A stretch of 44,776 bases of DNA, taken from positions 1 to 44,776 of the forward strand of contig JANWKP010000153.1 of NCBI GenBank assembly GCA_025451315.1. Direction: 5' to 3'. This DNA is from Nitrososphaerales archaeon (GTDB taxonomy: Archaea; Thermoproteota; Nitrososphaeria; Nitrososphaerales; Nitrososphaeraceae). The position numbers were made by a program, and so were the translations under genes. Below are positions 14,820 to 44,776 of the stretch, in pieces (the stretch's first letter is position 1; every line of letters starts with the position of its first letter). The notes beneath the pieces are model-generated. The model did no database searches. It was not told the origin of the DNA and saw only the letters and a program-made list of their open reading frames with translations.

Positions 14820-15935
14820 TTAAGATATTGAGATGTTCATAATATCGAATTTTAAACATTCACATTGATTAGAAAGTACTGATGAAATATTTGGTTCAAT
14901 GAAATTTCGTCCTTCTATAAATTGCCTCAAGAAAAGACCGCTGTCACATTCTATATTAATGATCAAATGGAAAGGATCGAGCTTTTTGAATCGAATATAA
15001 TAAATTTTTTTATATATTATTTTTGATTTATAACAATACCTGATGATAGAATTATTTAATTTCATTAATTTGGTAAGATGAATTTTATTTATTGGATTTG
15101 ATGCTTTTATAAATATTTTATTTTTAATTCTAAAATTCCTTTTAACATTTTCTATGAAGTCTTTGTTTTCTATAATTTTAAAGGAGATTCCGTTATTAGT
15201 AAAAACTTTATTAATCTTTATTGTCCTATTCCGTGGATTAATAAGCTGAATCATAAATAATCGACCTTTACCTAGAACTTGACTGTTATCATCTTCGCTT
15301 CCATACCAAGTAAAAACTATTCTATCAGATCTAATATAATTTGATAAAGTCTTTTGTATTATTGTTTCAATTGATTGCTTTTTCAATATTTTCTGGTCAT
15401 GAGCATCAAAAGGACAACTCTTTAAATCATTTTTTTCTCTTTGAGCCATAAATTTTTTCTTGGTGTACCTACCAAGCAAAAACAATGATCGAGATAAAAT
15501 CGTAATAGAATATTCATTATTATCAGAAATAAATAGATTAATTTTAATGTCAGGATTTTTAAGATTTAAGTTTTTCTTTGATAGAAATTTAAATTTGTTC
15601 CTAATTTCAAAATTAAAAGAAGTTTTTATATCTTCAATATCTTTTAATTTAAAAAGTGACCTTATATAATCCTCTTTATCAAACATATAATAAGGTAATG
15701 ATGTACCTATAGTAAATGAACGATAACTATATTTTTCTTGAAAATTAATCGTTTCGAATATTTTATGTGCAATTTCATTAATAATGCTGAAAATGCCTTT
15801 GCAAATAAAGCATTCTACATTAGTCATTTTACTGCTATATTTTAAAGTAGGGAAATTCCTTTTCATACATATATAACATAACGGGTATTCAGAATAGAAA
15901 GAGTTTGAATAATTCAGGTATTTTGAGTGACCCAA
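14820..15935 (-). CDS. pus10: tRNA pseudouridine synthase Pus10
   Basis: Forms pseudouridine 54 and/or 55 in the tRNA T-loop in archaea. The 371-aa protein has an N-terminal zinc site of two CxxC pairs (CYICMKR and CFICKG), a THUMP-like middle region, and the catalytic segment TWYGSEDDNSQVLGKGRLF, with the catalytic Asp in the ED pair (about residue 214), followed by NPRNR. The C-terminal GLFLRQFIEGRNFIEPNIS is also typical. The Lys/Asn/Ile-rich composition follows the genome's bias. It lies 3 nt after the srp54 stop, in an operon with srp54 and dph6. Confidence 0.9.
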   Translation of the reverse strand: MGHSKYLNYSNSFYSEYPLCYICMKRNFPTLKYSSKMTNVECFICKGIFSIINEIAHKIFETINFQEKYSYRSFTIGTSLPYYMFDKEDYIRSLFKLKDIEDIKTSFNFEIRNKFKFLSKKNLNLKNPDIKINLFISDNNEYSITILSRSLFLLGRYTKKKFMAQREKNDLKSCPFDAHDQKILKKQSIETIIQKTLSNYIRSDRIVFTWYGSEDDNSQVLGKGRLFMIQLINPRNRTIKINKVFTNNGISFKIIENKDFIENVKRNFRIKNKIFIKASNPINKIHLTKLMKLNNSIIRYCYKSKIIYKKIYYIRFKKLDPFHLIINIECDSGLFLRQFIEGRNFIEPNISSVLSNQCECLKFDIMNISIS

Positions 15936-19315: not shown

Positions 19316-19330
19316 TCCCGCGAGCAGGAT

Positions 19331-19361
19331 TTGCCCCATAATAACGAAATAGTTATTTTGT
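19331..19361 (-). other. tRNA-Tyr intron 2 (T-loop, 58/59 position)
   Basis: 31 nt, starting ACAAAATAAC and ending GGGGCAA. The core is a hairpin AATAAC/GTTATT. Removal restores a 7-nt T-loop CTCAAAT closed by GCAGG/CCTGC. The bulge-helix-bulge is relaxed on its 3' side because the T-stem closing base pair is shared. Confidence 0.75.
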
Positions 19362-19382
19362 TTGAGCCTGCGACAATTCGGT

Positions 19383-19438
19383 TTCTGCTAATGTGAGCCT
19401 GATAGGCTGAAAATACGGTTAGCTAAATAAGCCAACTA
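19383..19438 (-). other. tRNA-Tyr intron 1 (canonical 37/38 position)
   Basis: 56 nt, starting TAGTTGGC and ending GCAGAA on the minus strand. It contains two internal hairpins, GTTGGC/GCTAAC (one G-U pair) and AGCCT/AGGCT. The exon-intron junctions form a bulge-helix-bulge suitable for the archaeal splicing endonuclease. Confidence 0.8.
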
Positions 19439-19485
19439 CTACAGCCGAAAGCTCTACCAGGCTGAGCTATCGCGGGATAAATCGT

Positions 19486-19508
19486 TTGATATATTTATTA
19501 TATATAAC
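19486..19508 (-). promoter_or_regulatory. TATA region of the tRNA-Tyr gene
   Basis: On the minus strand TTATATATAATAAATATAT ends about 10 nt before the tRNA 5' end. Its upstream part sits at the -25 to -30 distance expected for an archaeal TATA box. Confidence 0.45.
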
Positions 19509-31455: not shown

Positions 31456-31464
31456 TTAATTATC
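31456..31464. repeat. Left target-site duplication of the IS
   Basis: ttaattatc immediately left of the IS, identical to the 9 nt at 32406-32414. Its reverse complement, GATAATTAA, also provides the last two codons and the stop of the transposase. Confidence 0.85.
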
Positions 31465-32277
31465 GGCTGTGTAGAAACCATCACCATAACAACCAACTTC
31501 ACTATTCTGTGAACATTGTATGCTATACATCTCAAAATCAGTTCCCTGTTCTGCATTCTTATCAGCCTGGATGTAATATGTTCCCCCAAATAACCTCTTT
31601 ATGACTGATACAATAGTTTCATCTTTGTTACTCTGGTTGTACAGAATCTTGTTGTATCCACGTTTCATTACCTTTCTGTATCTGCCATGAGTCTTCCATA
31701 TTGGTACATCTTCATATCTTGCAGGCATGATACTCAATCCATGTAGTTTCTTTATTACAAGGACATGGTTATCTTCGCTGTCATATGCTTTATCTGCAAC
31801 AACTACAGATAATGATTTTATTTTTGATATTCTTGTCACAATCGGCTTGAAGTCTATGTTATCATGTCGTGGTGGAGCTCGTCTTACCTTGATGTTACAG
31901 ACTATTTGTTTTAGAACATCTGCGCCAATAGATAATTTAGCATATTTCTTTCTCAATTTGGCTCTATCTGTATAGTATTCTGATGCATGTGTTACCTTGA
32001 ATCCAGTTGAATCTAATCCAGCAAATATGTGTCTTGTACCTGTAAAGAGGATAAAAGATGAAATTATCCTTTCTAATAACACTATAATGATTCTATCAGT
32101 GAATTTCTGTAATGTTGTATAATGTGGTATCTTGGACAACTGGAGAAACAACCTCAAATAGTATGCTTCAACAAGCCAGTCTGTAAACATCCTATAACTC
32201 TTACCTTCATATTGCCTTATTGTAACAAGTACAATGTGTTGCCATACTGTGTAAATGTGATTGCTCTTTCTATGCAA
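31456..32277 (-). CDS. IS5/IS4-superfamily DDE transposase
   Basis: A 273-aa protein with catalytic acidic residues in IFAGLDSTGFKV, VVADKAYDSE and KDETIVSVIKRLFGG. The N-terminus is probably incomplete in the track. The same frame continues upstream of TTG 32277 as KYVRLADQLLRILKHCRIPL without an ATG, back to a TAA. A non-ATG start further upstream or a lost start is therefore possible. The C-terminus reads through the left terminal repeat (GFYTA) and stops in the target-site duplication (D-N-stop). Codon use is slightly less AT-rich than its neighbours. Confidence 0.88.
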   Translation of the reverse strand: MHRKSNHIYTVWQHIVLVTIRQYEGKSYRMFTDWLVEAYYLRLFLQLSKIPHYTTLQKFTDRIIIVLLERIISSFILFTGTRHIFAGLDSTGFKVTHASEYYTDRAKLRKKYAKLSIGADVLKQIVCNIKVRRAPPRHDNIDFKPIVTRISKIKSLSVVVADKAYDSEDNHVLVIKKLHGLSIMPARYEDVPIWKTHGRYRKVMKRGYNKILYNQSNKDETIVSVIKRLFGGTYYIQADKNAEQGTDFEMYSIQCSQNSEVGCYGDGFYTADN

Positions 32278-44265: not shown

Positions 44266-44336
44266 TTTTTAGATCACGAATCTTTTTATACTTAAAATAA
44301 ACTTTGATTTATTCGTTTACGTTAGAGGATAATAGG

Positions 44337-44776
44337 ATGTCAAATGATAATGAGTCAGAATTTGCTTTTGTTATAGAGGGTATTATCGATCGCAATGGAG
44401 TAGTTGTGATTGAATCGGTTCAACAACAAGACCTACTAAGAAATAAAGGATATGGAGTCAAAATTCAAGAAAAATTTATCTTGGAAAGTTATGAATCTCT
44501 ATTTTTATTATATTCAAAAAGATTAGTTTTAAAAAAAAAGAAGAAGATAATTGACTTTTCCAATTTTCTTCAAACATTATTGAAAAAAGATTTATCCATT
44601 TTTACTAAATTTTTAATATTCAGGGATCTTAGGACACGAGGATATATTGCAAAAGAAGGTTTCGGATTTGGAAATGATTTTCGTGTTTATGAAAGAGGAG
44701 AATATTCTAGAAAACCAGCCAAGTATATAATTTTTGGAATTAATGAAGGCATTAGTATAAAGGCAAATTTGTTATA
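44337..44776 (+). CDS. endA: tRNA-splicing endonuclease subunit EndA (partial, runs off the window)
   Basis: An open frame from ATG 44337 to the window edge (146 codons). It has an N-terminal segment RNKGYGVKIQEKFILESYES (the YG-x-L-x-x-EA-type motif, here ESYESLFLLY) and the C-terminal catalytic-domain start FLIFRDLRTRGYIAKEGFGF then GNDFRVYERG with the catalytic Tyr. The usual His that follows (pattern H-x-x-Y-L-V) is Pro here (RKPAKYIIF). The last catalytic Lys lies beyond the window. It is missing from the ORF track because it is cut by the edge. Its substrate would include the intron-bearing tRNA-Tyr in this window. Confidence 0.85.
   Translation, partial: MSNDNESEFAFVIEGIIDRNGVVVIESVQQQDLLRNKGYGVKIQEKFILESYESLFLLYSKRLVLKKKKKIIDFSNFLQTLLKKDLSIFTKFLIFRDLRTRGYIAKEGFGFGNDFRVYERGEYSRKPAKYIIFGINEGISIKANLL

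Follow-up and report, generated by a model that had tools for sequence, protein, structure and literature searches.

The usual enzyme for pseudouridine 35 (psi35) is TruD/aPus7. Yeast Pus7 requires the intron for psi35 formation in pre-tRNA-Tyr, and to our knowledge neither a D-loop antisense element nor an ACA has been described for the yeast system. We also know of no H/ACA guide that resides inside any tRNA intron. In Sulfolobus, psi35 of pre-tRNA-Tyr is guided by an H/ACA particle with a separate RNA (PMC7991803, PMC4652768); the H/ACA sRNA Sso1 adopts a '10/5/9' fold, and the ACA of H/ACA RNAs is located 14-16 nt from the pocket (PMC4652768). Haloferax and other Euryarchaeota possess a box C/D guide within the intron of tRNA-Trp (PMC11408192). 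Non-canonical tRNA introns of Thaumarchaeota have already been catalogued (PMC8450103), and 56/57 and 59/60 are among the listed archaeal tRNA intron positions (PMC4090602).

The locus described here lies in a window of 44,776 nt, the whole stretch of DNA that was analysed (contig JANWKP010000153.1 of assembly GCA_025451315.1), from a soil-type ammonia-oxidising archaeon whose tRNA-Tyr gene is disrupted twice. The tRNA-Tyr(GUA) gene is encoded on the minus strand, with C1 at 19476 and A73 at 19316. Exon/intron reading and comparison with homologues confirmed the two introns of 56 and 31 nt proposed in the initial annotation; together with exons of 38, 21 and 15 nt they make up a span of 161 nt.

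19498..19507, minus strand: TATA-like box TTATATATAA upstream of the tRNA-Tyr gene (retained in family members)
19439..19476, minus strand: exon 1 of tRNA-Tyr(GUA), positions 1-37 (sequence, homologue comparison)
19383..19438, minus strand: intron 1, 56 nt, canonical position 37/38 (central helix CUGU(32-35):GCAG)
19362..19382, minus strand: exon 2, positions 38-58, with the 5' strand of the T-arm and C54 (sequence, homologues)
19331..19361, minus strand: intron 2, 31 nt, in the T-loop, best junction 58/59 (the sequence permits 56/57 to 59/60)
19316..19330, minus strand: exon 3, positions 59-73 (sequence, homologues)

Read down from 19476, exon 1 is CCCGCGA-TA-GCTC-AGCCTGGTA-GAGC-T-TTCGG-CTGTAG (38 nt), exon 2 is ACCGAA-TTGTC-GCAGG-CTCAA (21 nt) and exon 3 is ATCCTGC-TCGCGGG-A (15 nt). 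The spliced product is a 74-mer with C1-G72, A73 and the anticodon GUA, which forms a cloverleaf with every stem paired. A tRNA-Tyr covariance model allowing introns, built from spliced and unspliced homologues with the window gene itself among them, returned the gene as the top match in its own genome (78.2 bits, E 2.4e-17). BLAST of the 4.04-Mb assembly revealed a single tRNA-Tyr copy, and a second, intact gene, which the initial annotation had named as a finding that would speak against its reading, was found in the assembly neither by BLAST nor by the covariance model. The comparison with relatives that had been suggested at the same time showed that both introns are retained throughout the Nitrososphaeraceae, with near-identical exons, and the TATA-like box around 22-31 nt upstream of the gene is conserved as well. 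Since family members retain both introns, the exons and the TATA-like box, this structure is not due to chance. The window gene is probably a working tRNA-Tyr gene, the transcript of which is predicted to be spliced twice by the bulge-helix-bulge endonuclease. ARAGORN and Rfam found no match in the unspliced gene, as might be expected if the T-loop insertion marked a decayed or non-functional copy or an assembly error; this explanation has a negligible probability and is already contradicted by the single copy, the near-invariant exons and the covarying intron helices of the whole family. Elsewhere, a second tRNA-Tyr copy that is truncated and sits at the end of a contig (L092, G119:C12:21-78) is most likely an assembly duplicate, and two records labelled Binatia and 'bacterium' (L210, L215) contain a typical archaeal tRNA-Tyr and are probably mis-binned contigs.

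The bulge-helix-bulge motifs proposed for each junction were recovered, and both have a central helix of 4 bp, which is CUGU(32-35):GCAG for intron 1 and GCUC(53-56):GGGC for intron 2, with GCUC:GRGY as the family form of the latter.

19385..19388, minus strand: GCAG of intron 1, 3' strand of the central helix (sequence, homologues)
19333..19336, minus strand: GGGC of intron 2, partner of G53-C54-U55-C56 (central helix)
19337..19360, minus strand: inner hairpin of intron 2, CAAAAUAAC-UAUUUC-GUUAUUAUG, with one mismatch (fold, covariation)

By the letters alone, the T-loop junction is ambiguous, as CTC-AAA-C ... GGGGC-AAA-TCC fits any position from 56/57 to 59/60. Bulge-helix-bulge geometry favours the originally proposed junction at 58/59, because the central helix predicted for it is paired in 39/39 distinct introns (G53-C/U, C54-G, U55-A/G, C56-G). 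Junctions at 56/57 and 57/58, and 59/60 in the Nitrososphaeraceae, yield no 4-bp central helix and were rejected; 59/60 suits the Brockarchaeota (L176, L235). The inner helix of intron 2 varies in sequence with compensation, and its 3' bulge has 5 nt, a relaxed form of the motif, unless re-pairing occurs between G53 and C61.

The initial annotation had considered a T-loop intron unfamiliar for this lineage, which did not hold: it is found family-wide, in the tRNA-Tyr of other families and in the tRNA-Trp of the same genome. When 400 genomes of the order were searched by BLAST, nearly all members of the Nitrososphaeraceae showed full-length matches with two introns, and in the largest other family the matches stop before the T-loop. 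Family f1 has GGCTCAA, 19-32 nt and ATCC, and families f9 and f2 have an unbroken GGTTCAA; according to named records, the group with the T-loop intron corresponds to the Nitrososphaeraceae (Nitrososphaera, Nitrosocosmicus, TH5895 and others), and tRNA-Tyr genes without it belong mostly to the Nitrosopumilaceae and relatives. T-loop introns are also present in tRNA-Tyr of other families of the order or phylum (L103, L111, L112, L118, L176, L193). The T-loop intron is real and ordinary for the Nitrososphaeraceae, and T-loop introns as well as multiple introns are already known from archaeal tRNAs. As in the non-canonical and multiple tRNA introns of Thermoproteales and Thaumarchaeota, two introns occur in one tRNA and the T-loop intron has a 4-bp central helix; however, 58/59 is absent from the positions named in PMC4090602, and the T-loop intron of the family's tRNA-Tyr is accompanied by a replacement of the usual U54 by C54, the partner of an invariant intron G. 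The T-loop intron adds one family-wide example of archaeal tRNA disruption. Among the other genes inspected, the tRNA-Trp of the same genome (L139, G000:C332:25473-25609) is likewise interrupted at 37/38 and in the T-loop, where the intron sits at 58/59 with the central helix GUUC:GAAC; some tRNA-Tyr genes of other families contain three introns (anticodon stem around 30/31, 37/38 and T-loop; L111, L118, L193, L189), and others have D-arm introns (L107, L109, L113, L116).

Two genes in the window encode proteins that act on tRNA:

14820..15935, minus strand: gene for the pseudouridine synthase Pus10 (Pfam PF21238, PF22023)
44304..44774, plus strand: gene for an EndA-like tRNA-splicing endonuclease, cut by the contig end (Pfam PF01974, PF02778)

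In addition to the EndA-like gene in the window, a 195-aa paralogue is encoded on contig C43; two EndA-like proteins are encoded, as expected for an alpha2beta2-type enzyme, and a further EndA-like fragment is located on C256. The Pus10 gene, placed 3.4 kb away by the initial annotation, was verified (Pfam Pus10_C, E 6.4e-19). The accompanying suggestion that the T-loop intron hides the Pus10 target site stands in part: U55 is paired in the precursor as part of the central helix, but a C occupies position 54 in all family homologues that have the T-loop intron, which leaves position 55 as the sole possible site for Pus10, and no link between the neighbouring Pus10 gene and the T-loop intron was found. 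An ORF resembling a DDE transposase is located at 31456-32277 of the window.

The more unusual feature, which the initial annotation had overlooked, is a D-loop antisense element followed by an ACA in intron 1. The 37/38 intron is common to the whole order and beyond, and the element is present across the Nitrososphaeria and in other Thermoproteota: CAGC and a spacer base precede the complement of D-loop positions 15-21, and ACA follows after one or two bases.

19455..19462, minus strand: D-loop GCCUGGUA (positions 15-21), partner of the intron-1 element (covariation)
19442..19445, minus strand: G31-G34 (GCUG), partner of the intron CAGC, with U35 next at 19441 (covariation)
19418..19436, minus strand: hairpin P2 of intron 1, GUUGGCU-UAUUU-AGCUAAC (fold)
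19406..19409, minus strand: CAGC of intron 1, candidate 3' guide strand (alignment, covariation)
19397..19404, minus strand: UAUCAGGC of intron 1, D-loop antisense, candidate lower stem P1 (fold, covariation)
19392..19394, minus strand: ACA of intron 1, 15 nt past the start of CAGC and apart from the splicing helix (alignment)

Among 122 distinct introns drawn from this genome, from the order and class to which it belongs and from further classes of the phylum, all eight D-loop positions are paired in 115, with at most one bulge. D-loop 8-mers starting at exon-1 positions 14-16 were matched in 74-93 of 98 introns, those with other starts in at most 24. Plain complementarity is weak evidence, since dinucleotide-shuffled introns also reach 8/8 in 12.5% of cases if G-U pairs and a single bulge are tolerated; the case for the helix rests on covariation, position and spacing. 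Compensatory changes occur at D-loop positions 17 (C-G, U-A) and 20 (U-A, C-G, A-U) and, in the adjoining helix, at position 31 (G-C, A-U). D-loops with U17 are combined with an intron A instead of G (L105, L112, L115, L119, L122, L145, L146, L193), except in L118, where the intron G is retained and a G-U pair results; C20 is combined with an intron G (L116, L146, L147, L148, L151), A20 with an intron U (L167, L168, L189), and in one genome A31 goes with a U at the matching guide position (L158). As some of the switches fall within individual families (f10, f13, f22), the covariation does not reflect one inherited event. The eight-pair helix is 98.1% paired over 27 distinct combinations, slid registers reach 15-44%, and neither its covariation score nor its percentage of pairing was attained by any of 500 shuffles; a twelve-pair version including positions 31-34 is 92.0% paired, again with 0/500 shuffles matching, both tests being uncorrected for the relatedness of the sequences. 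Reassignment of the D-loops reached the observed Watson-Crick count in 0/2000 trials. Judged by this covariation, the predicted helix between intron 1 and the D-loop is real and well supported. It is included in the minimum-energy fold of the window precursor and of 81/119 precursors; in many precursors a hairpin of 7-10 bp begins just after U35-A36, and the linker from this upper hairpin to CAGC measures 1 to 10 nt. A plain AGCC-loop-GGCU hairpin was rejected as the cause of the conservation, as it is broken in many Nitrosopumilaceae (CAGCAUAUCAGGC) with the D-loop pairing intact. One TruD-lacking genome has a differing tRNA-Tyr intron without the D-loop antisense (L197, G488:C1:754692-754832; GGCUG-UAGU-CAGCC, a long hairpin and CACACAG), and searching 24 distant Thermoproteota for tRNA-Tyr by pattern gave no matches, which places these genomes outside the pattern-based sample.

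The distance between the CAGC base paired with G34 and the ACA is 15 nt in 98/119 introns and 14 or 16 nt in 15 more, which agrees with the spacing of H/ACA RNAs. An extra helix base is usually offset by a spacer one base shorter, so that the distance is held (L101, L103, L110, L116). In families f1 and f2, in which the splicing strand is separate, the ACA is kept in 46/46 introns and followed by T, A, G or C. Beyond these two families, ACAG is in most lineages also the splicing strand, so that its conservation there proves nothing.

These features can be combined into a model in which the precursor adopts a second fold before splicing. Intron 1 probably pairs with the D-loop (15-21) via UAUCAGGC, and GCUG (31-34) would pair with the intron CAGC directly above this stem, leaving U35 and A36 unpaired and facing an internal loop under the intron hairpin, with the ACA 15 nt downstream. 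Such a fold would resemble a one-stem H/ACA guide in which the tRNA itself serves as both target and lower stem, and U35 would occupy the pocket. Cbf5 is encoded in the genome, and we infer that it pseudouridylates U35 while the precursor is folded in this way, after which the RNA would refold to the cloverleaf and be spliced. Refolding would be needed because positions 32-35 cannot pair with CAGC and the splicing strand simultaneously, and this switch suggests that modification precedes splicing. The stem - internal loop - stem layout of P1, the loop with U35-A36 and the P2 hairpin is present, and the 3' guide CAGC pairs with 31-34; a cis hairpin replaces the 5' guide duplex. As no conserved K-turn or K-loop for L7Ae was seen by eye in the aligned introns, intron 1 is classed as H/ACA-like and not as an H/ACA RNA. 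Like Sso1, it combines a guide strand, a lower stem and an ACA spacing of around 14-15 nt with a presumed target at U35 of pre-tRNA-Tyr; Sso1, however, works in trans as an RNA of its own, whereas the element lies inside the intron of its own substrate. The Haloferax intron likewise contains a guide-like element complementary to the anticodon region of its own tRNA. In contrast to that system, the tRNA is tRNA-Tyr and not tRNA-Trp, boxes C, D, C' and D' were not found in the sequence of intron 1, an ACA and stem layout of the H/ACA type is present, and the lower stem is formed with the D-loop. Intron-containing pre-tRNA-Tyr is also the substrate of yeast Pus7, which is a protein-only enzyme. 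No such intron element is described in the open-access literature searched, and a description elsewhere is possible. The overall explanation, comprising a working, twice-spliced gene, a second fold of intron 1 and psi35 formation by Cbf5 before the switch to the cloverleaf, has in our estimation about an even chance of being correct. That pre-tRNA-Tyr serves as its own H/ACA guide in the Nitrososphaeria and several other Thermoproteota lineages, with Cbf5 acting in cis on U35, appears plausible, at a little below even chances.

The self-guiding role is our preferred inference, and its main rival is that the D-loop:intron helix supports splicing or folding only by fixing the shape of the precursor until the endonuclease acts, the ACA being accidental or a structural remnant. 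In L163, L164 and L180, which belong to one genus and all have TruD, the D-loop antisense is retained and CAGC is lost or out of register; hence, the helix can outlive the guide strand, which favours this rival. The use of ACAG as a splicing strand in most lineages outside f1 and f2 and the presence of TruD in most genomes point in the same direction. However, the helix is incompatible with the D-arm and with the splicing helix of positions 32-35 and should therefore hinder splicing, the invariant ACA of f1 and f2 has no splicing use, and the compensating insertions that hold the 15-nt spacing also argue against this explanation, which we consider possible but rather unlikely. TruD/aPus7 is also encoded in the genome of the window, which counts against the guide reading: a guide would not be strictly needed there, and TruD absence was rejected as a reason for having one. 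Also counting against it are the lack of a conserved K-turn or K-loop, the replacement of the 5' guide duplex by the cis hairpin and the variable linker from this hairpin to CAGC.

TruD was found in 139/152 sampled genomes and not detected in 13. The full element is kept in 11/12 TruD-lacking genomes with a readable tRNA-Tyr versus 7/12 readable genomes with TruD from outside the class, five of which miss part of it, a difference that is not significant (Fisher p = 0.155); a strict anticorrelation between TruD and the element was rejected as suggestive only. By analogy with the intron-requiring yeast Pus7, the intron fold could also be a recognition element for TruD/aPus7, consistent with the wide distribution of TruD and with U33-G34-U35-A36-G37, which fits the Pus7 consensus UNUAR. 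The element is kept, however, in genomes without detectable TruD (L165, L167, L168, L175, L176, L189, L193, L200, L202, L203), and we regard this role as improbable. Equally small is the probability that the intron, once excised, is a small guide or antisense RNA acting in trans. The Haloferax tRNA-Trp intron provides a precedent for a trans-acting intron guide (PMC11408192), and D-loops of the GCCUGG type are present in further tRNAs of these genomes, but CAGC is complementary to positions 31-34 of the very tRNA-Tyr that contains it, and the match to the D-loop covaries within one gene, as would suit cis action or self-targeting.

The element in intron 1 bears on the open question of why tRNA-Tyr has held on to an intron for so long. 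Phylum-wide covariation of the helix between the intron and the D-loop of its own tRNA, together with an ACA at the H/ACA distance, suggests that the intron persists because anticodon modification requires it. If true, this would be the first known H/ACA guide within a tRNA intron and would provide a selected reason for intron retention, and the availability of cultured Nitrososphaera, Nitrosocosmicus and Nitrosopumilus strains makes the idea directly testable.
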